This document shows positions 2,108-16,340 of a stretch of 16,340 nt of DNA, in pieces. The DNA is from Cyanobacteria bacterium UBA8803 (lineage in GTDB: Bacteria; Cyanobacteriota; Cyanobacteriia; Cyanobacteriales; Coleofasciculaceae). Numbering within the stretch: the first letter of the stretch is position 1; each line of letters begins with the position of its first letter. The translations under genes and the position numbers were made by a program. The notes beneath the pieces are model-generated. The model was not told where the DNA came from, searched no databases, and was given only the letters and a program-made list of their open reading frames with translations. Location of the stretch: contig DNXU01000302.1 in the NCBI GenBank assembly GCA_003505715.1, forward strand, positions 5,202 to 21,541. Direction: 5' to 3'.

Positions 2108-2588
2108 GCAGCAACAGAATCATCGTCGGGGCACCGACTTACTAAACTAACATCCTACCTTGACTGGGGAAGGGAGAGAGGGACAGCCAGAGGTATAGAT
2201 CTTAGCTGGTTACTCTATTTTCGCCAAGCTGCACTGGTGCATCCGGACAGATGCACGGGCACTCCTTGCTTTTCGAGGCGAGAGAGGAGGTGCAGGGATG
2301 ATGGATGAGCCAAATCACAATTTTAAGGCTCGAAAACTTTGTGATTTATGCCTATAGCTATTCTCACTCAATTGGGAAATCTTCTGTTCGGTATTATTTA
2401 TAGTCTGTTCACCCATAAAAACTTTCCATAACCTAAACTTAACCAAATGTTAAGAAAATATTAAATTATTTTTCAAAAGAGTTCATATAATATTATATTA
2501 GGCTTAAGCGCTAGTATTTTGAGAAATTAAAGGTAAATCTGAGGGTGCAGGTTTAGAGAAATTTCCTAGAAAATAATTGAATATTTTT
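2108..2588. other. Intergenic region between divergent minC and the diguanylate cyclase gene
   Basis: This 481-base stretch must hold the promoters for minCDE (leftward) and for the cyclase gene (rightward). The half next to minC is GC-richer and contains a perfect 7-bp hairpin, GTGCATC (2237-2243) and GATGCAC (2250-2256), with a six-base loop. A strong purine-rich site (AGGAGG, 2285-2290) lies 7 bases before an ATG at 2298, but that frame codes only 19 residues. From about 2330 the sequence becomes AT-rich, with an inverted repeat CTTAAC/GTTAAG (2438-2443, 2449-2454) and a TATAAT at 2486-2491. No convincing protein gene is seen. Confidence 0.6.
2486..2491 (+). promoter_or_regulatory. Candidate -10 box upstream of the diguanylate cyclase gene
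   Basis: A consensus TATAAT sits about 98 bases before the likely ATG at 2589. No good TTGACA-like -35 hexamer lies 16-18 bases upstream, so if used it would be a -35-poor or activator-dependent promoter. The surroundings are very AT-rich, so a chance match is possible. Confidence 0.25.
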
Positions 2589-3674
2589 ATGCTGTCAGTT
2601 CAGGAGTCCTACCAAGAACTTTCGGTGTCTGTCCAATCAGAACTCCAGAATCTGAGTGTAGAGTCGGTGCTTCAGGAATTGCCACTCTACAATTTTCATT
2701 TTGAGTCCTCTCAGATCGGGCAGGAAGTCGCTCAGACTTTTCAACTCAATCCCGTGCTGCCAGGAATCATTTTGACAGAACAGGGGAAGTTTGCAGGGAT
2801 GATTTCGCGGCGTCGATTTCTCGAACAGATGAGCCGGCCCTATGGATTGGAACTTTTTTTAAAGCGACCCCTCAAATCTTTATATCGCTTTGCTCAGACT
2901 GAGGTTTTAATTTTGACAGGGGACACCCGGATTGTTAATGCTGCACATCGCTGCTTGGAACGTTCTGCGGAGTTACTCTACGAGCCAATTGCAGTGGAGT
3001 TGGCACCACGAACTTATCGCGTCTTAGATACTTATCAATTATTGGTGGCTCAGTTACACATTCACGAACTAGCAACCCAGCTATTGGCACAGCTATACCA
3101 CAAATTAGAGGTCGCTAACTTACAGTTAGAGCATTTGGCGACCTCCGATGGTTTAACTGGAGTGGCTAACCGACGCCGATTTGATGAATATTTACAAACT
3201 TGCTGGGAACAACAATGCGAGGGGAATTCCTGGCTATCGCTGATTATGTGCGATGTTGATTTTTTTAAAAGCTACAATGACAATTACGGTCATCAAGCTG
3301 GTGATGAGTGTTTGCGGCAAATTGCGGCAGGAATTCGGCGCGTTCTCAAGCGACCGGGGGATTTAGTAGCGCGTTATGGCGGTGAAGAATTCGGCGTGAT
3401 TCTACCGCTAACCCCCCTTAAAGGTGCCGTTCAAGTTGCCGAAATGATTCGGCAAGAGGTTAAATCCTTAGGGATTCCTCATGAAAAATCTTTGGTGAGT
3501 TCTGGTATAACTCTCAGTCTTGGGGTGGGTAGCATAATACCAACTTCGGAGCTATTGCCAACGACTTTAACCGCAACGGCAGATGCCGCCTTGTATAAGG
3601 CAAAGTCTTCAGGGCGCGATCGCGTGGTTGTCTATCCCCCCTTGAATTCCTTACAATTTAACTCCTCAGTGTAG
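2589..3674 (+). CDS. Diguanylate cyclase with N-terminal sensory domain (GGDEF protein)
   Basis: Predicted to make cyclic di-GMP from two GTP. The reading frame opens at a TTG at 2577, but I prefer ATG 2589 because the product then aligns from its first residue with the neighbouring kinase (both begin MLSVQ); this gives 361 residues. Residues 1 to about 165 are the sensory module shared with that kinase, of uncertain fold, perhaps CBS-like. A short helical linker (about 165-183) follows, then the GGDEF domain (about 184-350). The active site is ARYGGEEF (GGEEF at 264-268), with a metal-binding aspartate in CDVDFFK (222). The inhibitory I-site RPGD (255-258) sits five residues before GGEEF, so the enzyme should be active and feedback-inhibited. 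No membrane segment or EAL domain is present. It stands alone on the plus strand, 336 bases before the kinase gene. Confidence 0.93.
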   Translation: MLSVQESYQELSVSVQSELQNLSVESVLQELPLYNFHFESSQIGQEVAQTFQLNPVLPGIILTEQGKFAGMISRRRFLEQMSRPYGLELFLKRPLKSLYRFAQTEVLILTGDTRIVNAAHRCLERSAELLYEPIAVELAPRTYRVLDTYQLLVAQLHIHELATQLLAQLYHKLEVANLQLEHLATSDGLTGVANRRRFDEYLQTCWEQQCEGNSWLSLIMCDVDFFKSYNDNYGHQAGDECLRQIAAGIRRVLKRPGDLVARYGGEEFGVILPLTPLKGAVQVAEMIRQEVKSLGIPHEKSLVSSGITLSLGVGSIIPTSELLPTTLTATADAALYKAKSSGRDRVVVYPPLNSLQFNSSV

Positions 3675-4010: not shown

Positions 4011-5342
4011 ATGCTATCTGTCCAAAAGTATTACAAAAAGTTAGTAATCCCTCCTCAAGCTGAGATGAACCATCTTAGTCTGGAGTCAACGCTCCGAGAG
4101 CTTTCACTCTACAACTCTCAAATTGAATCGTCTCGCCTTGGTACGGAAGTTGCTCAATCGTTTCAACTAAATCCCCTGCTGCCGGGAGTCATTCTCACCC
4201 AGCAGGGGAAATTTGCAGGAATGATTTCGCGAAGGCGGTTTTTGGAACAGATGAGTCGTCCATATGGGCTAGAGCTGTTTCTGAAACGTCCTCTATTCTC
4301 TTTATACCGTTTTGTGAGTACGGATGTTTTGCGGTTCAAAGGAGATATGGCGATCGTAGAAGCTGCTCGCCGTTCCCTACAGCGTCCGCCAGAACTACTC
4401 TACGAACCAATTGTGGTAGAGACAGAACTAGAAAATTACCGATTGTTGGACGTACATCAGTTACTCATCGCTCAGTCTAAGATTCATGAGTTGACCACTC
4501 AGCTCCTCAACGAGCAAACCCAAGCACAGATGATTCAGACGGAAAAAATGGCTAGTTTGGGTCAGATGGTTGCCGGAGTTGCTCATGAAATAAAAAATCC
4601 GGTTGGTTGTATTACATGTAATTTTGAATTTTTAGAAAATTACTGTCAAAAATTAATTGACATCTTGTCTGCTTATGAGGCAGAAACACCTGAATTACCC
4701 GATCATCTGATTGAATTAAGGGAAGAATTGGAGCTAGATTTTATATTACAAGACTTACCAAAAATCCTGAAAAGTATAGGAACAGGGTCAGAAAGATTAA
4801 CTAAAATCGTTGGCAGCCTGCACAGTTTCTCTCACATGGATGAATCAAATCGCAAGCCCGCTAATATTCATGAATGTATAGAGAGTACTTTGATTATTTT
4901 ACATAACCGCCTCAAGCATGGTATGGAGGTGATTAAAGATTATGGAGATTTGCCACCTGTCAATTGCTACTCCGGCCAACTAAGTCAGGTATTCATGAAT
5001 ATCATCAGTAATGCCATTGATGCATTAACGGATAAAGTCAACGAGCAAGGAGCTAACCTGAAGGAGTGGAAACCAAAAATTGAGATCCACACCAACTTGT
5101 TACAGCACTCAGAAGCAGATTGGGTATCGATACTGATTCAGGATAATGGCCCTGGGATACCCTTAGCCATTCAACAGCGAATTTTTGAGATGTTTTTCAC
5201 CACCAAGCCAGTTGGGAAGGGAACGGGTTTGGGTTTAGCCATCAGCCATCAAATTGTCACCCAAAAACATGGAGGGGAATTACTGATGCGTTCCGAGCCT
5301 AGGACAGGGACGGAATTTCAAATTTTGCTGCCGTTGGTTTAG
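4011..5342 (+). CDS. Soluble sensor histidine kinase
   Basis: A 443-residue two-component sensor kinase with no membrane segment, so cytoplasmic. Residues 1 to about 166 are the sensory module shared with the upstream diguanylate cyclase, with an identical run at 65-95. A short helix leads to the dimerisation/phosphoacceptor domain, with the H-box VAGVAHEIKNP (phosphoacceptor His192). A longer-than-usual helical insert (about 205-255) follows. The ATPase domain has N-box NIISNAIDAL (Asn334), G1 DNGPGI (378-383), F-box FEMFFTTKP, G2 GKGTGLGLA (402-410) and a C-terminal G3 (GTEFQILLPL). All catalytic boxes are intact. No response regulator is adjacent, so it is an orphan kinase here. The start is ATG with a weak GGA eight bases upstream. 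Its stop is five bases from that of the convergent HlyD-family gene. Confidence 0.93.
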   Translation: MLSVQKYYKKLVIPPQAEMNHLSLESTLRELSLYNSQIESSRLGTEVAQSFQLNPLLPGVILTQQGKFAGMISRRRFLEQMSRPYGLELFLKRPLFSLYRFVSTDVLRFKGDMAIVEAARRSLQRPPELLYEPIVVETELENYRLLDVHQLLIAQSKIHELTTQLLNEQTQAQMIQTEKMASLGQMVAGVAHEIKNPVGCITCNFEFLENYCQKLIDILSAYEAETPELPDHLIELREELELDFILQDLPKILKSIGTGSERLTKIVGSLHSFSHMDESNRKPANIHECIESTLIILHNRLKHGMEVIKDYGDLPPVNCYSGQLSQVFMNIISNAIDALTDKVNEQGANLKEWKPKIEIHTNLLQHSEADWVSILIQDNGPGIPLAIQQRIFEMFFTTKPVGKGTGLGLAISHQIVTQKHGGELLMRSEPRTGTEFQILLPLV

Positions 5343-5347
5343 CTCAA

Positions 5348-6967
5348 TCACTGCAAACCGCTCCACTCCCGCAAGAAGGGCAGTAAAAACGTAATCGGTG
5401 CTCGTTCTTCCACCGTTACCCGCAATGCCGTTGTCGTTCCTGCTGTTAGCTTGGTATCTGGGCCTTTCGATGACGACCACTTGTAACCACTGACATTACT
5501 GGATTCTGGGACTAACTCTGCTATCACTTCCACCTTAGGGGTTTTCCCTGCGATCGCATCTGCCAGTTCCGCATTACCTAATTTGGAAGCGGCTGTCGTT
5601 GACGTAACCGGATAGGGGGAGACAGATTTCACCGTTGCTACAATCCCTCCAAACCGCTCGCGCTTGACTGTATCGGGTGTAATTTGCATCTTCATCTCTG
5701 GCTTGATGCGTTTGCCATCTTTGACATCGAAGTAAGCAATACTTGTCAGTTGAACCTTCCCTTGCTCTTGAGTTTTTAAAGTGCCAAGGCGCGTACCGGG
5801 ACTCACGACTTGTCCCAGTACACTACTGACTTCTAGAATGCAGCCTTCCTGGGGACTTTCAATCAAGCTACGCTCTTTAATTTGTTGCTCCAATTGGGCA
5901 ATGGTGCGCTCGACTTCTGCAATTTCATTTTTTCGATCATTGGATGCTTGTAAATTGTCTTGTTCCAGTCGCTTGCTGCGGCTGTCTAACTCTTGTAGCT
6001 GAGCTTGAATGTCAGTCACTTGACTGCGATTATCTCGAAAAGACTTTTCAATACTAATCTCTTGAGTATTCAGTTGCTGTAATTGAGTTTGAATATCAGA
6101 AACTTGATTACGATTTTCTCGGAAAGATTTTTCAACCCCTATTTCTTTAGTACTTAATTCTTTTAACTGAGCTTGAATACTGGAAACTTGGTTGCGATTT
6201 TCTCGATAAGCATTTTCTGCTTCTAAAATTGAATCGGTTGAAATTGCGCCTTCTTTTTGCAGAGCATTACGAATGTCCAACCTCTTTTTCAGCACTGGAT
6301 TTAACTCATTAAGGCTCTGAATTTGTTGTTCAAAAGTGCGTCGTTGCTGTTCAATAGCGCTTAATTCTCGTTCTTTAGAAACAGATGCTAATGCTTGGGT
6401 GTCTTGAAGTCGTTGTTGCAAGGTTTGACGTTGCTGTGCAATCGTGATTAACCCTTGGTCTTTGAGACTGGGAGATAGGGATTGAATATCTCGCAACCGT
6501 TGGAGCAGACTAGTACGGGTAGAAGCGATCGCGTCTCGTTCTACTTGCGTGCGCTGTCTTTGCAGTGAGTCAGTATTAGCAGCTTGAGCGCTCAACTGCT
6601 GTTGTTTAGCTTGTTGGAGTTTCAGTTGTTCTTCTAATTCAGTGGGTTTAATGGTTGCTAAAATTTCCCCTTTTTTAACGCACTGATTATCTTTAATTAA
6701 TAAAGATTCTAACTGTCCTGCCAGTGGCGATTGTAACTCTAAAATTCGTTGCGGCGAAGTTAATACCCCTTGTCCGGATACCGTTACAGGAATTCTCCCC
6801 ACAACGCTCCAAACCAGCACCATCACAGTAAATCCTCCCACAGCTATGGCGGGGATAAAGTCTTTAGGTTTGACCACTTGCATGAGTTGGTCAAGCTGTT
6901 CTGGGGAGGCAAGAGATTCTAGAGATTGCTTTTGCTCTAAGTTTTCATTATCATTAGAAACAGTCAT
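5348..6967 (-). CDS. HlyD-family membrane fusion protein, NHLM/NHLP exporter type
   Basis: Periplasmic adaptor subunit that would link an inner-membrane ABC exporter to an outer channel. I chose ATG 6967 (539 residues): it follows the upstream stop by five bases and has an AAGGA 11 bases before it. The longer frame from 7003 would overlap that gene by 31 bases. A cytoplasmic N-terminus (about 36 residues) leads to one membrane helix (about 37-57, IPAIAVGGFTVMVLVWSVVG). Then come a split lipoyl-like domain (about 76-106 and 367-397), a very long coiled coil (about 108-365) built of 28-residue repeats, and a C-terminal beta-barrel region ending VTVEERAPITFLLPFLREW. The opening PEQLDQLMQVVKPKDF resembles NHLM/NHLP bacteriocin-system secretion proteins as I recall them. 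It forms an operon with the CNB protein. No ABC transporter gene is present in the window. Confidence 0.85.
   Translation of the reverse strand: MTVSNDNENLEQKQSLESLASPEQLDQLMQVVKPKDFIPAIAVGGFTVMVLVWSVVGRIPVTVSGQGVLTSPQRILELQSPLAGQLESLLIKDNQCVKKGEILATIKPTELEEQLKLQQAKQQQLSAQAANTDSLQRQRTQVERDAIASTRTSLLQRLRDIQSLSPSLKDQGLITIAQQRQTLQQRLQDTQALASVSKERELSAIEQQRRTFEQQIQSLNELNPVLKKRLDIRNALQKEGAISTDSILEAENAYRENRNQVSSIQAQLKELSTKEIGVEKSFRENRNQVSDIQTQLQQLNTQEISIEKSFRDNRSQVTDIQAQLQELDSRSKRLEQDNLQASNDRKNEIAEVERTIAQLEQQIKERSLIESPQEGCILEVSSVLGQVVSPGTRLGTLKTQEQGKVQLTSIAYFDVKDGKRIKPEMKMQITPDTVKRERFGGIVATVKSVSPYPVTSTTAASKLGNAELADAIAGKTPKVEVIAELVPESSNVSGYKWSSSKGPDTKLTAGTTTALRVTVEERAPITFLLPFLREWSGLQ
5960..6211 (-). 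repeat. Three tandem 84-bp (28-residue) repeats in the HlyD coiled coil
   Basis: Three successive 28-residue units share the pattern (A/S)(Y/F)R(E/D)NR(N/S)QV(S/T)xIQ(A/T)QLxxL. They occupy residues 253-280, 281-308 and 309-336 of the protein counted from ATG 6967. A more diverged set of three units of similar length lies just N-terminal (6281-6538; compare IAQQRQTLQQRLQ with IEQQRRTFEQQIQ). The coiled coil therefore seems to have grown by unit duplication, which would set hairpin length. Confidence 0.8.
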
Positions 6968-6972
6968 AAAGT

Positions 6973-8004
6973 TCAGTTTCCTTGTAGCCGATTCATCATC
7001 CACTTAAATCGAGTACCTGCGAGTAGGGTTGCCTCCAGAACATCGAGTGGAATTTCATCTTCGTATTCAATGTCATCCGCGAGTTGTTGGTCTTGGCTGT
7101 AAGATTTTTGACCAAACCCTCGTTGAATTAAACCTTCCCGTAGGCGGTCAATTAACACTAGGGAAATGGCACGATAAAAGCGGATGGCGAAACCGCGATC
7201 GCGTTGTATCTTTTCTCTTAATAGTTGTTGCGGTATGGCTAATACCAATGAGTTTTCTGCACATTTAATACTGGCAGATGCGTTCCCGGCTTCTACAAAG
7301 GACATCTCACCAACGATTTCTCCACTCGCTCGTCGAGCCAGTTCTTTATCCACGGGTTGCCCGTCTACCATCATGGAAAATATTACGGCTAGATTCCCTT
7401 GTAATAAAAAGTACAACGCTTCGACGGGCTGGTCTTGCTGAATCAAAACGGTTCCAGTGGGAGCATTTTCTTTCCTGCCGCGAGTCACCATCCAATCGAT
7501 ATCGTTGTCGTTGAGGATGGCAAAGAGAAATAGCACTTTTCGTAATGCTTGTCCGGGAACGATTTTGTTCTGTGCTAGTAATTTGGAAAGACTCCGCAGC
7601 CGGGAGGATAAGATGGCCGTTAGTTCCTGGTAAAGTCTAGCCCCAAAATCTGGGTCTCGCTCCATTTTGAGCTGCAACTGCCGTTTAGATAAGGCTAATA
7701 TCAATGAGGGTTCTACGGTTTTGACGGTTGCGGACGGGAGACGCTTATCAATAAAGGACATCTCACCAATGACTTCCCCTTGACTACAACGAGCAATTTC
7801 TTGATTGCTATCGGAATTTTGTTGGGAAATCAAAACTGTGACTGTACCTTCCAGGATGAAGTAAATGGAGTCGGAAGGTTGACCTTCTTGAATTAGTACT
7901 GTACCAGCAGAGAGTTCTTGGTGAGTGCCAGTTTGAGCCATCCACTCTATATCTGGTGGTTCTAGAACTTTTAAGTTATTGAGTTGGGTGAGTACAGGTG
8001 GCAT
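6973..8004 (-). CDS. Protein with two cyclic-nucleotide-binding-type (CNB) domains
   Basis: A 343-residue soluble protein with two CNB-fold domains: about 12-145 and about 157-295. The first has GTVLIQEGQPSDSIYFILEG and GEMSFIDKRLPSATV; the second has GTVLIQQDQPVEALYFLLQG and GEMSFVEAGNASASI. In each phosphate-binding cassette the Gly-Glu pair is kept (80-81 and 232-233), but the arginine that contacts the cyclic phosphate in CAP and PKA-R is a serine (91 and 243), so cyclic-nucleotide binding is doubtful. No DNA-binding domain follows; the C-terminus is an acidic segment (DDIEYEDEIPLDVLEATLLA) and a short basic tail. It lies directly upstream of the HlyD gene, an arrangement I associate with NHLM/NHLP export systems. 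It probably controls or scaffolds the transporter; that role is inferred. It is 158 bases after the preceding ligase gene. Confidence 0.85.
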   Translation of the reverse strand: MPPVLTQLNNLKVLEPPDIEWMAQTGTHQELSAGTVLIQEGQPSDSIYFILEGTVTVLISQQNSDSNQEIARCSQGEVIGEMSFIDKRLPSATVKTVEPSLILALSKRQLQLKMERDPDFGARLYQELTAILSSRLRSLSKLLAQNKIVPGQALRKVLFLFAILNDNDIDWMVTRGRKENAPTGTVLIQQDQPVEALYFLLQGNLAVIFSMMVDGQPVDKELARRASGEIVGEMSFVEAGNASASIKCAENSLVLAIPQQLLREKIQRDRGFAIRFYRAISLVLIDRLREGLIQRGFGQKSYSQDQQLADDIEYEDEIPLDVLEATLLAGTRFKWMMNRLQGN

Positions 8005-8162
8005 GGTTAAATTAGAGCTTTACCAAGGATGCTTATTCTTAGAGTGCCCAAGTAGGGGTTAAAACTAACAAGAGGGTAGTTTTGGGTGGGGCGATCGCAT
8101 CTATCAATTTTGAGATTTCAGCGATCGCCATTCGGTCAAAGGCTGTAATTGAGCTAGCGACT

Positions 8163-9317
8163 TCAGACTAAGCTATTAACTAAATCTGAATTAGTAGACT
8201 GTCTAGCAAAAGCCTCCGTAATGATTTCTGACATCAGTTGTGCAAACGGGATGCCAGAAAGGTGCAAGATGGTACCAACGGAGGTTGCGCCCTGATCGTT
8301 GTCATCGAAGGTGGAGAGAGGTTTAGAAGAAATGCCAGGGTTAGGGTTCACCTCTAGGACAAAGAGTTCTTGGGAAGCTTTATCCATCCGTATATCTACT
8401 CGTGCATATCCATTGCCACCGATAGCACAGTAAGCACGCTTACTTAACTCGCAAAGCTTATCATGCAAGTCAGGAGCGACCAATTGGTAACGACAAAATG
8501 GATCTTCGGGTGAAAAGGGAGAGCCTTTTTCATATTTTGTCCAGTACCAATCGTAAACCAAAAACCGTTCGGTTTCAGGGAGATTGGAGTGAAACACTCG
8601 TTCCACAGGCGGGTAAATTTTGATGCTTTCTGGCTCAGTAGCAGAACCGATTAGGAAGACTGTGAACTCACAACCATTGATAAACCGTTCTACAAAGATG
8701 CTGTCCGGCAAAAATTGCACTCCGTGCATTCCTTGCAGCAAACGTTGAACTTGTTCACTGACCTGTTCATCGTTGTAAACAACTGATTGCAAAGAAAGTC
8801 CACAGCTACCGTAAGAGTCCGCTGGTTTTACAATTAAGGGGGTGCCAAGACGTTCGCAAACTCCCTGAAGGCGGCTTCTATCTGCAATCACTTCATAGGG
8901 AGCAGTAGCTACACCTGCCTCAACCAAAGTACGCTTCATCCTAATTTTGGAGTCGCTCAAATTAAAATGAACATCCGCACCTGTAAAAATGATGCCTCTG
9001 GCTTCCAGTAGTTTGAGAACAGAAATGCCAGGGTAGCCATCAAGCTCATCAAGCCCAGTGCAATAGTTCAGTACCACTGGGATATACTCATTGCTGGAAG
9101 CCGCTACCTCTTCTACAACCGCCTGCATATTTTCCAAGGTGATCGGTTGCCACTTCCACTTCAAGCCGAGTTCTGTAAAGACATCTGCTAGTTCCTGACG
9201 AGTGGCAGGATTGTCAAAGTCTTCGCTGCTCAACTCTTGTCCTTTAATGCAGTAGGGAATAAACACCCAGACAAACAGCTTGTTGCTAGGTACAGGTAAT
9301 TTTTGGGAGATTGTCAT
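8163..9317 (-). CDS. ATP-grasp ligase, D-alanine-D-alanine ligase-like (copy 1 of tandem pair)
   Basis: Predicted to activate a carboxylate as acyl phosphate and join it to an amine. I chose ATG 9317 (384 residues) over GTG 9341 because the product then starts level with its neighbour copy and the catalytic residues fall at the same numbers. Visible parts are an N-terminal domain (about 1-120), the ATP-binding lysine VKPADSYGSCGLS (Lys164), the adenine-loop segment IFVERFINGCEFTVFLIG (Glu210), and the Mg-binding RVDIR (Asp308) with LFVLEVNPNPG (Glu322, Asn324). The Asn-Pro-Gly loop is Ddl-like. All catalytic residues are present, but it is longer than Ddl and too diverged to call peptidoglycan synthesis. 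Its neighbours (EctC, NRPS, two more ligases) suggest oligopeptide or amino-acid conjugate assembly. Substrates are unknown. Confidence 0.85.
   Translation of the reverse strand: MTISQKLPVPSNKLFVWVFIPYCIKGQELSSEDFDNPATRQELADVFTELGLKWKWQPITLENMQAVVEEVAASSNEYIPVVLNYCTGLDELDGYPGISVLKLLEARGIIFTGADVHFNLSDSKIRMKRTLVEAGVATAPYEVIADRSRLQGVCERLGTPLIVKPADSYGSCGLSLQSVVYNDEQVSEQVQRLLQGMHGVQFLPDSIFVERFINGCEFTVFLIGSATEPESIKIYPPVERVFHSNLPETERFLVYDWYWTKYEKGSPFSPEDPFCRYQLVAPDLHDKLCELSKRAYCAIGGNGYARVDIRMDKASQELFVLEVNPNPGISSKPLSTFDDNDQGATSVGTILHLSGIPFAQLMSEIITEAFARQSTNSDLVNSLV
9061..9159. repeat. 99-bp near-identical block shared by the two tandem ligase genes
   Basis: This block matches 10256-10354 at 97 of 99 bases, by direct reading (offset 1195). 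Elsewhere the two genes differ much more. It encodes the N-terminal stretch around WKWQPITLENMQAVVEEV in both proteins. A local patch identical even at silent sites suggests recent gene conversion or slipped recombination between the copies. Confidence 0.85.
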
Positions 9318-9360
9318 TGTTTTAGTAGCTCTAGTGTTCACAGTAAATATCGGTACAAGT

Positions 9361-10509
9361 TCACGCTGCTTTGTTTATCGAACACGACTTGGTAAAACAC
9401 CTAGCAAAAGCTTCCGCAATAATTTCTGACATCAGTTGTGCAAATGGGATACCAGCCAGATGCAAGATAGTGCCAAGGGAGGTTTGGTTTAGGTCGGAGA
9501 AGTCAGTCAGAGGTATAGAAGAAATGGCACAGTTAGCATTAACTTCCAGAACAAAAAGCTCTTGAGAATCTTTGTCCATGCGGATATCTACTCGCGCATA
9601 TCCGTTGCCACCAACCGCACAATACGCAAGCTTGCTGAGATCGCAGAGTTTTTCGCTCAAATCCGAAGCTACCGATTGGCAATGGTAAAACGGTTCCGAG
9701 GATGACGATAAAGATTCTTCAAGGTGTTTGCCCCAGAAGTTATCGTAAGACCGAAATTGTTCGGTTTCAGGCAAGCTGGAATGAAACACCAGTTCAATCG
9801 GCGGATAGATTTTGAGGCTTTCCGGTTGTTGGGAATTACCTAGCAGGAAAACTGTAAATTCACGACCGCTGATAAATCGTTCTACAAAGATGCTGTCCGG
9901 TGGAAACTGCATCTCGTGTACCCCTTGCAGCAATCGCTGAACCTGTTTACTCACCTGTTCATCACTTTCGACAACCGACTCCAGTGAAATTCCGATACTG
10001 CCATAGGCGAGTGCTGGTTTAACTAATAGAGGTGTGCCAAGGCGCTCGCAAACTCCCTGAACGCGGCTGGGGTGTGAGATAACTTCATAAGGAGCAGTAG
10101 CTACACTCGCCTTCATAAAAGCACGTTTCATCCAAATTTTGGATGTAGTGAGATGGAAAAAATTAGAATCCGCACCTGTAAAAATGATGCCTTTTTGTTC
10201 CAGCAGTTTGATAACAGAAGTACCAGGGTAGCCGTCAATCTCATCATTACCATCACAATAGTTCAGTACCACTGGTATATACTCATTGCTGGAAGCCACT
10301 ACCTCTTCTACAACCGCCTGCATATTTTCCAAGGTGATCGGTTGCCACTTCCACGCTATACCGAGTTCTGCAAAAACATCTGCTAGCCCCTGACGATACC
10401 CAGGATTGTCGTAGTCGCTGAGCAACTCTTGCTCTTGAATGCGGTAGGGAATAAATACCCAGACAAATAGCTTACTACTATGTAGTGAAAATTCCTGCTC
10501 AATATTCAC
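9361..10509 (-). CDS. ATP-grasp ligase, D-alanine-D-alanine ligase-like (copy 2 of tandem pair)
   Basis: A 382-residue paralogue of the gene that follows it 43 bases downstream (19 if that gene starts at its GTG), clearly from tandem duplication. The start is GTG, supported by AAAGGAG 11 bases upstream. Landmarks match the sister numbering: LLVKPALAYGSIGIS (Lys164), SIFVERFISGREFTVFLLG (Glu210), RVDIRMD (Asp308) and FVLEVNANCAISS (Glu322, Asn324). All nucleotide and metal ligands are kept. The loop after the metal site reads NANCAIS instead of NPNPGIS, and the middle region (about 255-285) differs most, which points to a different substrate from copy 1. It lies 78 bases after the EctC gene. 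Peptide or amide ligase activity is inferred from the family; the substrates cannot be read from sequence. Confidence 0.85.
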   Translation of the reverse strand: MNIEQEFSLHSSKLFVWVFIPYRIQEQELLSDYDNPGYRQGLADVFAELGIAWKWQPITLENMQAVVEEVVASSNEYIPVVLNYCDGNDEIDGYPGTSVIKLLEQKGIIFTGADSNFFHLTTSKIWMKRAFMKASVATAPYEVISHPSRVQGVCERLGTPLLVKPALAYGSIGISLESVVESDEQVSKQVQRLLQGVHEMQFPPDSIFVERFISGREFTVFLLGNSQQPESLKIYPPIELVFHSSLPETEQFRSYDNFWGKHLEESLSSSSEPFYHCQSVASDLSEKLCDLSKLAYCAVGGNGYARVDIRMDKDSQELFVLEVNANCAISSIPLTDFSDLNQTSLGTILHLAGIPFAQLMSEIIAEAFARCFTKSCSINKAA

Positions 10510-10587
10510 TGCTATTATGACTCCTTTATTAGCTTAAGTTCTCTTTAGGGAAAGTGATTAATTGAATGCCAATGCAGTAATTGAAAT

Positions 10588-10965
10588 CTAGTAGCAAGAG
10601 CTTTTATTGTTACTCAGTTGGTGAGATTCATGTCCTTGCAGAGGCGGCGTAAAAACGCAAATCAGCCGTAGCGTCGTTTTAGCACGTAAATAATGTTTGT
10701 CATTCTTATCTAAGGCATACATAGTGCCAGGTTGAATAGGGTAAATTGTCCCATCCACCTCTACTTCCCCTTCGCCTTCAATACAGTAGCAAGCTTCCAT
10801 GTGATTCCTGTATTCAAGTAATGATTCTGTGTTCGCTTCAATGATGGTATCGGTCAGGGAGAATTCCATCCCATCACGAGCTAACAAAAGTCTTCTACTT
10901 TGTCCATTGCCCCAATCAATATCTCGTTCTGTATTAACAATTTCCGTCAAATTTCTAATAATCAT
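10588..10965 (-). CDS. ectC: L-ectoine synthase-like cupin (EctC family)
   Basis: Ectoine synthase is an iron-dependent cupin that closes N-gamma-acetyl-diaminobutyrate into the cyclic amidine ectoine. The product is 125 residues, near the usual ~130, and aligns end to end with EctC: SRRLLLARDGMEFSLTDT, NHMEACYCIEGEGEVEVDG, YPIQPGTMYALDKNDKHYLR, LICVFTPPLQG. The three iron ligands known for EctC are present (Glu57, Tyr83, His91; the last two shifted by two through a short deletion), as are the late acidic and histidine positions (Glu113, His115). The tail after about 116 is not EctC-like. No ectA, ectB or ectD is in the window. The gene sits between two ligase genes, 47 bases after one and 78 before the next, with GGGAAG before its ATG. 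It therefore probably makes a cyclic amidine within this pathway rather than ectoine. Family call strong; substrate unknown. Confidence 0.92.
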   Translation of the reverse strand: MIIRNLTEIVNTERDIDWGNGQSRRLLLARDGMEFSLTDTIIEANTESLLEYRNHMEACYCIEGEGEVEVDGTIYPIQPGTMYALDKNDKHYLRAKTTLRLICVFTPPLQGHESHQLSNNKSSCY

Positions 10966-11012
10966 TTTGCGGTCTTCCCATCAATCAATTGCATATTGAG
11001 GTATGTATTTAT

Positions 11013-12080
11013 CTATTCTTGGGCTATATCTCTAACTAGTAAAGCTAGTTGCTTAAGATTATTTTTAGATGAACAAAACTTTCGCTGGCGAAGTTTATAA
11101 CGGTTAATGCCTTCCTTAATAATATGTTTAAGAAATCCTGATGCTCCTTCTTTTTCATCTTTTAAAATATAGTCAGCCGAGGCTTCTGCACCTTCTTTCA
11201 TAAAAATTAAAGGACTAAAATTGATTTCAAGGAAAAAAATCTCTTTTTGCTCATTAACTCTAAAATCAAAACGAGCGTACCCAACACCATTAAAAGCTAA
11301 AAATATCTTTTTAGCAGCATCTCTCAAGCGAAGATCAAGTTCTAAGTCAGAGCATAAAACATTACATTCTGGATGATATTGATGCACCTTCAAATCATAA
11401 GTCTTAAACTGCTCTCCTTTAGGAAAGACAAATTCTAGAGGGCGATAAATGATTGGAGCCTGACTATTTTCTGGATTAGCAGCTATAAGAACTGTAAACT
11501 CTCTGCCAGATATATATTCCTCGATTAGAATCCGATCAAAATAAGTAATGAGGTCGGCTACTTTGCTCTGCAATGCCTCTTTTGTTGTTACATAAGATTG
11601 ATGATCAATACCTAAACTATCTAATGCGGCTTCTGGTTTAACGAAAAGAGGAAATTCTAGACTTTGACAAGCGTCCTTGACATCAGCTAAGGTTTCAACT
11701 TTCACAAATCCTGGTCTACGTACCCCCGCAATGTCAGCAACATACTTCATTAACTCCTTGCCAGGATCGTAGAGGTCGAAAGTCGGACCAGTATAAGGTA
11801 AATTAAGCTGTTCTAAAGCAACAATTACATCAATAGAGGGAACATCCCAGTCCAAACATCCGGTACAGAGGTTAACAAAAATATCGTAACCTTGCTTCTT
11901 TAACTCTTTTAGCTGACGATAGGTTGTAGCTTTGTTGAGAAATACGTGATCTACCTGGTCTTCTGGTAATAAATGAGAAAGATTTCGTGGTGGTTCAGAG
12001 TTTTTGTAATCGGCTTCTGTCATATAGTCTACTGTCAATACCGACTTAGAATAGTCGGGTTGCAGAACGCAAACTTTCAT
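11013..12080 (-). CDS. ATP-grasp ligase, divergent third enzyme
   Basis: A 355-residue ATP-grasp enzyme only distantly related to the tandem pair downstream. The ATP-binding lysine is in FPLFVKPEAALDSLGI (Lys148), the adenine-site acidic pair in LIEEYISGREFTVLIA (Glu187-Glu188), and the metal site in YARFDFRV (Asp272) with IFFLEINFSP (Glu285, Asn287). The active centre is complete, but the glycine-rich loop reads AALDSLG instead of a Ddl-type GSxG, and the Asn-Pro-Gly loop is replaced by NFSPLIF, so the acceptor pocket must differ. The N-terminal ~110 residues contain FVNLCTGCLDWDVPSIDVI, equivalent to the LNYC-G-DE-GYPG segment of the pair. ATG with AGGAA six bases upstream supports the start. 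The gene is visibly more AT-rich than the NRPS and min genes and lacks HIP1 sites, hinting at a separate origin. It lies 117 bases downstream of the NRPS. Confidence 0.85.
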   Translation of the reverse strand: MKVCVLQPDYSKSVLTVDYMTEADYKNSEPPRNLSHLLPEDQVDHVFLNKATTYRQLKELKKQGYDIFVNLCTGCLDWDVPSIDVIVALEQLNLPYTGPTFDLYDPGKELMKYVADIAGVRRPGFVKVETLADVKDACQSLEFPLFVKPEAALDSLGIDHQSYVTTKEALQSKVADLITYFDRILIEEYISGREFTVLIAANPENSQAPIIYRPLEFVFPKGEQFKTYDLKVHQYHPECNVLCSDLELDLRLRDAAKKIFLAFNGVGYARFDFRVNEQKEIFFLEINFSPLIFMKEGAEASADYILKDEKEGASGFLKHIIKEGINRYKLRQRKFCSSKNNLKQLALLVRDIAQE

Positions 12081-12197
12081 GTTGATTTCCTAGAGTCTCA
12101 GTTTGGTACAAGTAGCGTAAAAGCTTGGGTTCGTTTTGAGTAATTGCGATCACCCTGCTGGCTCTTGAATCAAATCAGGCTGAGGAGCGATCGCCTT

Positions 12198-15100
12198 TCA
12201 GATAGAGGGACTGCAAGAAGATCGTGCAGCTATCCCTGAACCTGTTGCGCGAGGACGAGTATGGGGAAACTGGATCAAGGAGCGATCGCTCTGTGCCTGC
12301 TCAAGAGAATTCCTTAGCCGTTCCGCTAAAACTCGCACATGAGGCTCCTTGACAATGGTGTAGTGATTGCCAGAAATTGTATGAATCTCTACTCCTGTGT
12401 CCGTTAACTGATTCCAACCCATTGCCGGGTCTGAATTCTCTAACCCAAAAGATTCCTCCGCACGAAAGACAGTAATCTGGTTTGGATAAACAACTGGCGT
12501 GTAGCTGCGTTCAGCCTGACGATTTGCCAAAACAACCTCTAGCAAACGGCGAATTTCAACCACTCCAGCATCAGGAAGCACAACATTAGCCGCCCTTGCC
12601 CGCTCCAGCACGTAGCTCAACTGCTCATCCGGCGCAAGAGACTGGAGAGTACTAACCGATACATCAAGCTCCTTCCCAAAATAACTGCCCAAATCCTCAG
12701 CAAACCAAGCTAGTGTGGCAGCAGTATCAACCTCCATCGCTTGACTGTTGTGGTGGGGTGCTGAACTATCTATCAAAGCAAGCAGCGCCACTTGCTCACC
12801 AGATGAGTGCAACTGTTGAGCCATCTCAAACGCTACCACTCCACCAAATGACCAACCTCCCAGCAAATAGGGACCTTGCGGTTGAATCTCGCGGATTGCC
12901 TCGATATAATAACTAGCCATATCTTCAATCCGGCTGTTTGGCTCCCCTTGCCCATCAATCCCCGACGCTTGCAAACCGTAAAAAGGTTGGTCTTCACCCA
13001 GATGACGAGCTAAATCCATGTAACAAAGCACATTGCCTCCGATGGGATGAACGCAGAAAAAGGGAGGCTTTGTACCACCAGGCTGAATCGGTACTAAAGG
13101 AGAACTCAAGCGAGAACCCGTCGCCTGACGCAGAATGCTGGCCAGATGCTCAATAGTCGAACTGGGAAAAAGCATCGCTAGCGATAACTTCTGCCCCAAA
13201 TGCTGCTCAATCTCCAGCATCAGGCGTACTGCCGATAGAGAGTCACCGCCCAGGTTAAAGAAGTCGTCTTTCACGCTGATGGGGTGAATACCCAGCACAT
13301 TTTCCCAAATATGAGTCAACTGAAGTTCCCAAGTGTCACGGGGAGCTATAAATGCAGTTGGTTCAATGCATCTGCTGTCCCTTGGAGTGGGTAGTGCTTT
13401 GCGGTCAACTTTCCCGTTAGGATTCAATGGCAGGGACTCCAAGAACGTAAACCCTCCAGGGAGCATATAAGCTGGTAAGCGCTCTTTCAAGTAGGCACCC
13501 AGGCTTTTATCACATAGCTCTCCAGGAGTTGGTTGCTCGTTTAACACTACCTCTTGAGCGAATAGGCTATCGTAAAATAAGTTGCTCTTTGAGGGGGTTT
13601 TGTAGAGAAAAGAATCGTATTCAAATTCAAGGCGTTCTCCACTCTGTTTGAGCAAATAGCCTCGAATGTGATAGTCAGGACTTAACTGGTCTTCACTCAA
13701 CTGAGCGCTACAAACGGCTTCAATTTTGTCTCCAGCCGCTACTTCAATCCCCGGATAAAACACCGGAAAATAAACAGGTAGCCAGTTACCAACGTAAGCT
13801 AGACTGTCAATGACTTCATTTTCAACCGTGTGTAAATTAAGCCATAATAAAAATCCATCAATTTTACCACTTTGAGTGATGGTAAGGCTTATCTGTCGGT
13901 CATATTCGGGATTAGAGACTTGATTGAAATCCAAGCCTTCAAAAACATCTACAGTGGAGATGATGTTTGATTGAGGAAAATTTCGGAAAGAGACCCTTAA
14001 GGGAATTTTTCGACCGAGCTGGTTGAAAATCTGCTGGACGTAATAACCGGATAGTTCCGAAAAGTGAGGCTGACTGGCAAACGGTTCAGGAAGATAAACA
14101 GCAGCGATGTTAGTCACGCAGCGCTGGGGAATCATCATCCCATCTTCCTTGAGAAACCTTCTAGCATCATTGAGAATCGAAACCGCCCCTTCCGAATTGC
14201 CGATCGCGCCAATCAGTTCTGAAACACACAGATCGACTTTTTCCGGGAGTTGCACTTGGGTGGCATCCCCATGAATTACCGATATCTTATCTGACAGCCC
14301 CAGAGATTTTACATAACTCGTTGCCTGTTCGTAAGCTTCAAGTTGCATCTCAATGGCGTAAACTTTCAAAGCGCCATGTTCGGCACAGAATTTCGCCCAA
14401 ACAACATCCTTACCCGTGCCAATGTCTACAACAACTTTGTCCTTAACAACTTTTTTAAGTGCCACCTCATAACTGTGATTTCTCACATGGTCATAGGTCA
14501 TGGCATAGTACATGATGGCATCATAAACTCGGTAGTCTCCCGGACAGGGCCAGAGTTCTACCTGAGTGTTTTTTGGTTTGGGAACGACATAGGCGACGAG
14601 GCGTTGCTTGCCTGATTTTTCTTCGTGAGCCACTACCACACTGTCTTGCACCAGTGGATGCTGATTGAGAGTTGCCTCAATTTCCTCCGTTTGGATGCGG
14701 AAGCCGCGTACTTTCACCTGGTTATCAATGCGCCCCAGGATTTCGATATTACCGTCGCTTCCGATACGGGCTAAGTCCCCAGTTTTGTAGAGGCGAGAAT
14801 CGGCTTCATCACTAAAAGGATTGCGGATAAACCGCGCTCCCGTCAATTCGGGACGATTGAGATAGCCTCTTGCTAAACCAAGACCGCCAATATATAATTC
14901 GCCCGTCATCCCTTTAGGCACAGGCTTTTTGTTTTCATCCAACAAGTAAATCTGGGTGTTGGCAATGGGACAACCTATAGGTACGGAGTTGACATCTGGC
15001 AATTCTTTCCAGATGTCCGGTTCGTAGAGCGTCGATGTAATAGTGGTTTCAGTCAGTCCATAGGCATTGAGCCAGCGGACGCGATTACCCGCTATTTTCT

Positions 15101-15983
15101 GCCAACTCATCAATCGCTCTGGTAAAACCTTTTCATTGCCAACTACAACTAAGCGCAGCGTGGAAGGTAATTGCGCCTGTGAACTAGATAGAGCAGATAC
15201 CCATTCATGCCAGTAAGATGCAGGCAGGTTGAGAACAGTCAGCTTTTCCCGCTCTATCAGTGCTTGAAACTCTGCAACAGTTGGAGTTACAGAACCAGGA
15301 CGGAGAATGACAGTACCCCCGCTTAACCAGGTGGGGAATAACTCTTCTGCTGCAACATCGAAACTAATCGAAGCAAACTGTAAAACCCGATCTGTTGTCT
15401 GCAAATTATAGTGCTTGGCAATGGAAACACTGTGGTTGGCTAAACCCCGATGCGGAATCAGAACTCCTTTTGGCTGCCCCGTAGAGCCAGAGGTGTAGAT
15501 GACATAAGCTAGATTGTCAGATGTCATGCCGCTGTCAGGGTTCTGCTCGCTGTATTGGGCAATCTCCTCCCAATCAGCATCTAAACACACCACTTTTGCC
15601 TCGTGTGGGGGAAGATTTTCTAACCACCGTTTTTGAGTTAACAGCACTGGTGGTTGAGCATCTTCTAGCATCAAGGACAGCCGCTGTTGCGGGTAGGTTG
15701 GATCTAGGGGGACGTAGGCACCACCTGCTTTGAGAATACCCAGCAGTGCGATCGCCATTTCTAAGGAGCATTCCACACCAATTCCAACGAAAACTTCCGG
15801 TTCTACTCCTAAAGAAATTAGGTAATGCGCTACCTTGTTGGCTCGATGGTTTAATTCCCGATAAGTGAGGCTTTCCCCCTCAAAAATCACGGCGATGCTA
15901 TCAGGGGTTTGTTCTACTTGAAACTCAAATAAGTGATGAATGTACAATAGTTGAAAGGTTGATAAACCAATATTATTTGCCAT
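12198..15983 (-). CDS. Single-module NRPS: adenylation with embedded PRMT-like methyltransferase, thiolation, thioesterase
   Basis: A 1261-residue megasynthase with no condensation domain. The adenylation domain (about 20-470, resuming 830-870) has A3 YTSGSTGQPKG (163-173), A5 NAYGLTETT (306-314), A7 YKTGDLARI, A8 GRIDNQVKVRGFRI, and A10 NPNGKVDRKAL with Lys858. Aligning by eye to GrsA, the ten pocket residues are D209 V210 E213 N252 V279 V281 A307 I315 T316 K858; the glutamate suggests a basic side chain such as arginine, which is inference. Between A8 and A10 lies a SAM methyltransferase (about 480-815): VVVDIGTG motif I (517-524), the double-E loop SELIGAIGNSE (Glu589, Glu598) and a C-terminal barrel, resembling PRMT5. 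The carrier domain follows (LGGDS, Ser915), then a type I thioesterase (GGWSFGG, Ser1045; likely Asp1072 and His1207). The last ~25 residues look non-domain. It is the first gene of the leftward cluster, and the ligases probably supply the missing amide-bond chemistry. Confidence 0.93.
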   Translation of the reverse strand: MANNIGLSTFQLLYIHHLFEFQVEQTPDSIAVIFEGESLTYRELNHRANKVAHYLISLGVEPEVFVGIGVECSLEMAIALLGILKAGGAYVPLDPTYPQQRLSLMLEDAQPPVLLTQKRWLENLPPHEAKVVCLDADWEEIAQYSEQNPDSGMTSDNLAYVIYTSGSTGQPKGVLIPHRGLANHSVSIAKHYNLQTTDRVLQFASISFDVAAEELFPTWLSGGTVILRPGSVTPTVAEFQALIEREKLTVLNLPASYWHEWVSALSSSQAQLPSTLRLVVVGNEKVLPERLMSWQKIAGNRVRWLNAYGLTETTITSTLYEPDIWKELPDVNSVPIGCPIANTQIYLLDENKKPVPKGMTGELYIGGLGLARGYLNRPELTGARFIRNPFSDEADSRLYKTGDLARIGSDGNIEILGRIDNQVKVRGFRIQTEEIEATLNQHPLVQDSVVVAHEEKSGKQRLVAYVVPKPKNTQVELWPCPGDYRVYDAIMYYAMTYDHVRNHSYEVALKKVVKDKVVVDIGTGKDVVWAKFCAEHGALKVYAIEMQLEAYEQATSYVKSLGLSDKISVIHGDATQVQLPEKVDLCVSELIGAIGNSEGAVSILNDARRFLKEDGMMIPQRCVTNIAAVYLPEPFASQPHFSELSGYYVQQIFNQLGRKIPLRVSFRNFPQSNIISTVDVFEGLDFNQVSNPEYDRQISLTITQSGKIDGFLLWLNLHTVENEVIDSLAYVGNWLPVYFPVFYPGIEVAAGDKIEAVCSAQLSEDQLSPDYHIRGYLLKQSGERLEFEYDSFLYKTPSKSNLFYDSLFAQEVVLNEQPTPGELCDKSLGAYLKERLPAYMLPGGFTFLESLPLNPNGKVDRKALPTPRDSRCIEPTAFIAPRDTWELQLTHIWENVLGIHPISVKDDFFNLGGDSLSAVRLMLEIEQHLGQKLSLAMLFPSSTIEHLASILRQATGSRLSSPLVPIQPGGTKPPFFCVHPIGGNVLCYMDLARHLGEDQPFYGLQASGIDGQGEPNSRIEDMASYYIEAIREIQPQGPYLLGGWSFGGVVAFEMAQQLHSSGEQVALLALIDSSAPHHNSQAMEVDTAATLAWFAEDLGSYFGKELDVSVSTLQSLAPDEQLSYVLERARAANVVLPDAGVVEIRRLLEVVLANRQAERSYTPVVYPNQITVFRAEESFGLENSDPAMGWNQLTDTGVEIHTISGNHYTIVKEPHVRVLAERLRNSLEQAQSDRSLIQFPHTRPRATGSGIAARSSCSPSI

Positions 15984-16166: not shown

Positions 16167-16340
16167 TAAACTTTATTAGTAATATCACGTAAATTTTGGG
16201 TGAATACCATTTTTTAAGAGAAAATAAATTGAATCTATTTTGGGTAAAAAAACTAAAATTTAGGCTGTATTAGCCTCATATCCCGGCGACAACCCTGAAA
16301 AAAGATAGCTTATTGCGCTTAGCGGGACTTAAACAAAAAT

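Follow-up and report, generated by a model that had tools for sequence, protein, structure and literature searches.

A candidate cyanobacterial operon joining three Ddl-like ATP-grasp ligases to a condensation-less NRPS module and an EctC-like cupin

Gene Content of the Locus

The stretch of DNA considered here, called the window, comprises 16,340 nucleotides of the cyanobacterium Cyanobacteria bacterium UBA8803 (GenBank assembly GCA_003505715.1, contig DNXU01000302.1, our contig C520, positions 5202-21541); coordinates below are window positions unless another contig or locus is named. Seven open reading frames (ORFs), all on the minus strand, occupy 5348-15983 in the ORF listing of the window, which bears out the run of same-strand genes that an earlier model-made reading of these letters (the sequence-only reading) had taken for a candidate undescribed biosynthetic locus. 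They are transcribed in the order nonribosomal peptide synthetase (NRPS), ligase C, EctC-type cupin, ligase B, ligase A, cyclic-nucleotide-binding (CNB) protein and HlyD, separated by 19 to 158 bp except for one overlap of 31 bp. The NRPS carries adenylation (A), methyltransferase (MT), thiolation (T) and thioesterase (TE) domains. The features are:

12198..15983, minus strand: NRPS of domain order A-MT-T-TE, 1261 residues, PRMT-like MT at about residues 481-813 (Pfam)
11013..12080, minus strand: ATP-grasp ligase C, Ddl-like, a SET-less member of an ATP-grasp+SET family (Pfam)
10588..10965, minus strand: EctC-like iron cupin of the orphan type, with Gly21, Thr38 and Glu51 in P. lautus numbering (Pfam, NCBIfam)
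9361..10509, minus strand: ATP-grasp ligase B, paralogue of A (Pfam, sequence comparison, tree)
8163..9341, minus strand: ATP-grasp ligase A, with a Ddl fold in the predicted model (Pfam, structure search)
6973..8004, minus strand: double CNB protein of NHLM exporter type TIGR03896 (NCBIfam)
5348..7003, minus strand: HlyD-type membrane fusion protein of NHLM type TIGR03794 (NCBIfam)
16323..16337, plus strand: mobile-element terminal repeat CGGGACTTAAACAAA with YTAR-like targets, at which the contig breaks; flank TTAG at 16319-16322

The Ligases

Dala_Dala_lig_C (Pfam) matches A, B and C, and each of them has the D/E/N magnesium residues; we take the roles of these residues, and of the NRPS signatures below, to be those usually assigned to them. 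The sequence-only reading had described the ligases as intact but distinct. Intactness holds for all three, distinctness for C only, since A and B are 70% identical and C shares 31-33% identity with either. The predicted model of ligase A (mean pLDDT 83.7) matches Ddl structures (best E 5.5e-20, 22% identity), and the best NCBIfam Ddl scores of A, B and C are 86, 79.5 and 75 bits, far below the cutoffs, which are all at least 243. Ligase C is a member of a large ATP-grasp+SET family, with cyanobacteria and Bacteroidota among the names in the matches listed. A SET motif occurs in 108 of the 120 matches listed, 11 of the 120 are shorter than 400 residues, and ligase C of the window has no SET. 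It is rare: among 388 genomes sampled from the class, 2 have it, the source genome included. A plasmid search with ligase A gave no match at 1e-15.

The NRPS Module

Pfam finds AMP-binding, PRMT5-like methyltransferase, PP-binding and thioesterase domains in the NRPS, and no condensation domain; together with NCBIfam it upholds the condensation-less A-MT-T-TE protein, the EctC-type cupin and the CNB/HlyD pair of the sequence-only reading. Reading of the sequence shows a DSL motif in the T domain and GxSxG in the TE domain, and the MT insert is followed by the A10 lysine motif NGK.

What might the A domain activate? Its code is D V E N V G A I T (K), in which K is the A10 lysine and the G at column 301 was taken from the alignment with ApnA A1. 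By single-domain score the nearest solved A domain is this same ApnA A1 of anabaenopeptin synthetase (4d4g, 479.7 bits), the rows ranked higher being two-domain sums. The two share a DVAAEE stretch and a DV..E pocket; the window domain differs in its interruption by the MT and in N at 278 and T at 331, where the published codes examined have D/S and E/A. In the portion of Table 2 of PMC5311044 considered here, all ApnA A1 genotypes start DVE or DME and all incorporate Arg. Codes with Arg only are DVEDIGAIEK, DVEDIGAVEK and DVESIGAIEK, and those with Arg and Tyr include DVESIGAIAK (PMC5311044, same portion). The likeness of the pocket to these codes makes Arg our first guess for the substrate, with Tyr or Lys possible.

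The MT insert has PRMT6 as its best match in the PDB (E 3.5e-17) and contains the double-E loop SELIGAIGNSE, and on these two counts is assigned the PRMT fold. PRMT-like MT matches occur in 51 of 388 genomes of the order, the source genome included (1e-15). NRPS inserts 47-56% identical to it were found in 20 other genomes of the 388, at 22 places in all, and 21 of these places lie within open frames of 842 to 7416 residues; weaker matches are mostly in stand-alone frames of 321 to 422 residues. The insert is therefore not peculiar to this locus and is common in cyanobacterial NRPSs. Of 20 A domains read that immediately precede such an insert, 13 look Tyr-like (two of them loosely), four are Ile-like (one partly read), one, besides that of the window, is of DVE type (L197, genome G529) and two resemble none of these, where we take DASTVAAVCK and DAFFLGVTFK to be the Tyr-like and Ile-like codes. 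Both double-E glutamates are kept in 20 of 23 inserts, including 12 of the 13 Tyr-like and three of the four Ile-like modules. We accordingly dropped the double-E loop as proof of arginine methylation, which stays a guess resting on the A domain and not on the MT.

Two further observations concern these inserts. The DVE-type protein of genome G529 noted above, at L214:7124-12547, is an 1807-residue formyltransferase-C-A-MT-T-TE protein with a PRMT-like insert (C denoting condensation). At L183, L189, L191 and L193 a PRMT-like MT lies inside an A domain of Ile-like type; an O-methylated side chain is not to be expected there, and one reading is that the PRMT-like domain performs backbone N-methylation.

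The EctC-Like Cupin

The cupin scores 155.6 bits against Ectoine_synth (PF06339, cutoff 27). In the numbering of P. lautus EctC, whose residues and their roles are treated in the part of PMC6344544 used here, the iron triad Glu57/Tyr84/His92 is kept in the cupin and in all 120 relatives listed. The same 120 relatives have Gly for Trp21 and Thr for Asn38, and the window cupin also has Glu for Trp51.

Comparison of EctC loci, the best 80 of 98 candidates in one scan of genome contigs, gave a clean split by residues 21 and 51. In 26 of the 80 (orphan type, L011-L036), the residues are Gly21, Thr/Ala/Cys38 and Glu/Gln51, and none of the 26 stretches, some of them short, holds an ectB-like gene. 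The other 54 (ectB-linked type, L037-L090) have Trp or Phe21 and Trp51, with ectB in 50. The iron triad is kept in 80/80. Residue 38 varies in the 50 ectB-linked loci as well (31 His, 18 Asn, 1 Ser), which leaves Trp21 and Trp51 as the best means of telling the two types apart. No A-, B- or C-type ligase was found at any of the 80 loci, and the link between EctC and ligases thus rests on the source genome and on database contigs of equal length, described below. Neighbours of orphan EctC genes include an NRPS with glycosyltransferases and a sulfotransferase or APS kinase, tryptophan-pathway-like genes and a UbiD-like decarboxylase. One such locus (L035:6317-14169) places an orphan EctC among an AMP ligase, a tryptophan synthase alpha-like gene, a PRA isomerase-like gene, a Glycos_transf_3 protein and a pyridoxal-phosphate enzyme of the tryptophan synthase beta superfamily.

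Does the cupin make ectoine? The operon contains no ectAB; the genome-wide search covered EctA, with a best score of 22.3 bits against a cutoff of 120.6 in a genome 90.7% complete, and EctB was not searched genome-wide. Given the lack of an EctA over cutoff and the altered pocket, we judge ectoine synthesis unlikely, despite the NCBIfam ectoine synthase match considered below. EctC was found in 3 of 20 genomes of the source family, the source included, the other two at 53%.

The A/B Ligase Family in Other Genomes

The A/B ligase family is present in 9 of the 388 genomes of the order, the source genome included (1e-30). For the eight others, the ligase was examined together with as much as roughly 10 kb to either side, or less where the contig ended (loci L108-L115). 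Four of the eight have two A/B copies (L108, L111, L112, L113). One ABC exporter family stands at the ligase locus in five (L108, L111 with a split frame, L112, L113, L114); its members are 61-84% identical to the L112 protein, and it was not found at the other three ligase loci. Its recurrence fits a secreted small product. The exporters of three of these five loci score higher with MsbA-type than with NHLM-type NCBIfam models, all under the cutoffs.

Tailoring genes vary from locus to locus. Among the neighbours annotated, a FeeM-type N-acyl-amino-acid synthase over its cutoff directly adjoins the ligase at L108, L114 and L115 (genomes G666, G683 and G422), two of which also have the common ABC exporter; these three are possibly lipo-dipeptide pathways. 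At L110 (genome G493) a class I/II aminotransferase and a GntB-type arginine hydroxylase, the latter with 432 bits against a cutoff of 380, adjoin the ligase, and a further ATP-grasp protein is encoded at the locus. L113 holds two O-methyltransferases, and L111 one 76-residue frame with a TE-like match. At L109 a ligase C fused to SET lies 92 bp from an A-type ligase, the single case among the eight loci of a C-type beside an A-type ligase; among the eight genomes the C family is found only in G465. Two of the eight have a 77% identical EctC, which lies away from the ligases in another cluster. In the tree, one supported clade of five contains the three FeeM-linked ligases and excludes those of the window; ligase B is placed, though weakly supported, among ligases encoded on three contigs where a C-type ligase is present as well. 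The recurring element is the A/B ligase family, with the NRPS and EctC optional.

Partial sets also recur in the protein database, where co-occurrence was judged from equal lengths, in bp, of the longest contig given for each protein among the best 120 matches per search, equal lengths suggesting a single contig. Besides the contig of the window, C and A/B types coincide among the matches listed on eight such contigs, of 6068, 6243, 6435, 19424, 33655, 403791, 6512823 and 7252026 bp, the two megabase cases giving no proof of neighbourhood. The 6435-bp case has one C and two A/B ligases, and direct reading of the 403791-bp contig confirmed the C + A/B neighbourhood (L109). Three other contigs (9826, 10909 and 59573 bp) pair EctC with an A/B-type ligase and two (58331 and 60067 bp) pair it with ligase C, again among the matches listed; for the latter two the names of both proteins are Microseira sp. 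BLCC-F43 and Trichocoleus sp. DQ-U1, respectively. A further coincidence at 4459 bp (P0076, P0263) may be due to chance.

Exporter Genes, Mobile Element and Surroundings

The CNB protein scores 286.2 bits with TIGR03896 (cutoff 161.05), Pfam finding cNMP_binding in it twice, and the HlyD protein scores 305.3 bits with TIGR03794 (cutoff 156.2). Genome-wide, the window CNB is the only place that matches TIGR03896 with both halves (285.9 bits). On contig C180 a single half matches over the cutoff, at 164.8 bits and in a 192-residue frame; this contig holds a single CNB protein of 189 residues and gave no HlyD match in its first 6 kb. On C248 the gene beside an ABC protein is weakly HlyD-like (20.6%). 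One NHLM ABC2 place in the genome, with 957 bits, scores over its cutoff; it lies at the end of contig C177 (5639 bp). It is adjoined by an ABC protein that, on reading, starts like a C39 peptidase with a cysteine motif, and that we take for a putative ABC1. A defence-system library gave cNMP-binding-type matches for the CNB protein and one methyltransferase match for the NRPS.

Upstream of the NRPS the contig runs on for 357 bp and then stops, which may mean that part of the cluster is missing. Element ends CGGGACTTAAACAAA, mostly with YTAR flanks, occur at 33 places in the genome, nearly all of them contig ends, and many contigs are broken there; we take the element to be IS5-like. C177 and the window contig both break at this kind of end. 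When the 33 exact ends were compared, C177 proved a compatible partner, with opposite end types and CTAA vs TTAG, as did three other ends equally and two more ambiguously. A target-site duplication as proof of the link was rejected for that reason, and the link is only consistent with the data; the order ABC1-ABC2-element-NRPS-ligases-CNB-HlyD is plausible, not proven.

On the other side the operon is neighboured on the plus strand by a histidine kinase and a GGDEF protein and, further out, by minC, minD and minE on the minus strand. The GGDEF protein and the kinase (2577-3674 and 4011-5342) read as similar over their N-terminal 150 or so residues, likely a duplicated sensor part.

A Possible Product and Its Alternatives

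What could such an operon make? Tentatively, and with somewhat less than even confidence, we favor a specialised-metabolite operon whose ligases build a small amino-acid conjugate or short peptide, methylated and probably Arg-containing, which would undergo ring closure by the cupin and NHLM-type export. The A domain would activate arginine or one of its near basic or aromatic analogues and load it onto the T domain; the PRMT-like insert would then methylate the bound residue and the TE would release it. The three Ddl-like ligases may make the remaining amide bonds by acyl-phosphate chemistry, in place of condensation domains. The EctC-like iron cupin would close the ring through attack of an amine on an amide, as in ectoine synthase but on another substrate; a cyclic amidine would be a plausible outcome, though the substrate pocket differs from that of ectoine synthase. 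Finally, an NHLM exporter composed of the window HlyD and CNB and two ABC subunits, probably those of C177, would carry the product out. The domains, the intact signature residues, the altered ectoine pocket and the kinship of A, B and C are plain in the sequence; we infer the substrates, the order of steps, the ring closure, the export of this product and the product itself. The arginine hydroxylase and aminotransferase beside a related ligase at L110 point in the same direction, toward arginine chemistry.

Several results weigh against this proposal. The complete set was seen in no other genome, and neither EctC nor the A and MT parts of the NRPS were found in any of the eight ligase stretches of other genomes. 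Elsewhere PRMT-like MTs reside mostly in Tyr-like modules (13/20) and some in Ile-like ones (4/20), and the double-E loop kept there means that the MT is no proof of arginine methylation. EctC relatives occur in many unrelated contexts, and the NCBIfam ectoine synthase model PRK13290 passes on the cupin (162.9 bits, cutoff 128). The C39-like start of the ABC protein on C177 suggests a leader-bearing ribosomal peptide, and on reading no precursor-like small ORF, such as a graspetide would need, was recognised in the cluster gaps, up to the contig end. The observations of the sequence-only reading are confirmed, and part of its interpretation holds. A biosynthetic locus in which ligases accompany a condensation-less NRPS module and exporter parts stands; the expectation that the genes travel together as a unit does not, and partial sets do recur.

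Could mobile elements have placed two separate units side by side here? One would be a pathway of ligases A, B and C, perhaps including EctC, with its own product, the other an NRPS module that either makes a free methyl amino acid or is left over from a larger NRPS. The ligases that stand without EctC or the A-MT part in the stretches taken from all eight other genomes, the element end just upstream of the NRPS, and the finding that the 20 genomes with similar inserts at 22 places include no A/B-ligase genome all favor this view. The shared strand and short gaps oppose it, as does the position of EctC between ligases C and B, and the intact T and TE signatures of the stand-alone module argue against a remnant. 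We consider two units somewhat unlikely. In pheganomycin, PGM1 adds amino acids to a ribosomal precursor, and the ligases here could similarly extend a ribosomal precursor whose leader the C39 peptidase of the NHLM exporter cuts. The NHLM HlyD and CNB in the operon, the compatible element ends and, by reading, the C39-like cysteine motif of the ABC protein beside ABC2 agree with such a hybrid, but the gaps show no precursor-like ORF, and five of the eight related loci use another exporter, three of these scoring more MsbA-like than NHLM-like, under the cutoffs. A hybrid of this kind is distinctly unlikely. Less probable still is a lipo-amino-acid pathway in which the ligases elongate an N-acyl amino acid. 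FeeM directly beside the ligase in three of eight relatives, all three of those ligases within one supported clade, speaks for it, but neither Pfam nor NCBIfam gives a FeeM or acyltransferase family in the seven window genes, and the window ligases lie outside that clade.

Returning to the favored metabolite operon, a further idea, which we regard as unlikely, is that orphan EctC-like cupins generally are iron peptide cyclases that turn a ligase-made amide into a cyclic amidine within a peptide that has no free carboxylate; combined here with an Arg-loading, guanidine-methylating NRPS module, they would define a peptide class made without condensation domains. A carboxylate no longer free would explain the altered ectoine pocket. 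Whatever the product, orphan EctC proteins gain a testable context, a cupin between ligases that could make its substrate, and a cyanobacterial Ddl-like ligase family emerges with a common exporter, varied tailoring enzymes and no described pathway among the open-access papers listed in the searches. Nor did the papers listed include a described pathway matching the combination of genes, in agreement with the sequence-only reading, which knew of none.

Comparison with Known Systems

The D-Ala-D-Ala ligases share their magnesium residues with A, B and C and their fold with the model of A, and differ in that the window scores lie under the family cutoffs. From ectoine synthase EctC the window cupin keeps the iron triad, Thr40, Tyr52 and Arg25. 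It departs from it in Gly for Trp21, with a Trp three residues earlier in an ungapped alignment, in Thr for Asn38 and Glu for Trp51, and in an operon lacking ectB within a genome lacking EctA over cutoff. The parts of PMC5924519 and PMC6344544 considered describe orphan EctC groups that, like the window cupin, have no ectAB. Some of them show the Trp shifted by two residues (PMC6344544), and their function is left open in the portion of PMC5924519 used; the window gene differs in sitting between ATP-grasp ligases. The NHLM bacteriocin-type exporters are matched by the window HlyD and CNB over curated cutoffs and by an ABC2 over cutoff in the genome, whereas in the window no precursor gene was found in the cluster gaps and the ABC genes lie on another contig.

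LynB3 of lyngbyapeptin B carries a PRMT-like MT insert, a presumed Tyr O-methyltransferase, within the A domain of a cyanobacterial NRPS, as here, according to the portion of PMC10127204 considered; unlike the window protein, it is an assembly-line Tyr module with a second, backbone N-methylating MT.

In the mycosporine-like amino acid pathway, MysC and MysD are ATP-grasp enzymes and MysE is an A-T-TE NRPS. The window resembles this arrangement in placing ATP-grasp ligases, of which the pathway has one that is Ddl-like, beside a condensation-less A-T-TE protein. No EVS/DHQS-like cyclase (sugar-phosphate cyclase) and no O-methyltransferase was found among the 12 window ORFs run against Pfam. 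Set beside the mycosporine-like amino acid pathway as covered in part of PMC9918943, the window differs in its three Ddl-like ligases, the MT insert in its A domain, its EctC cupin and its NHLM parts.

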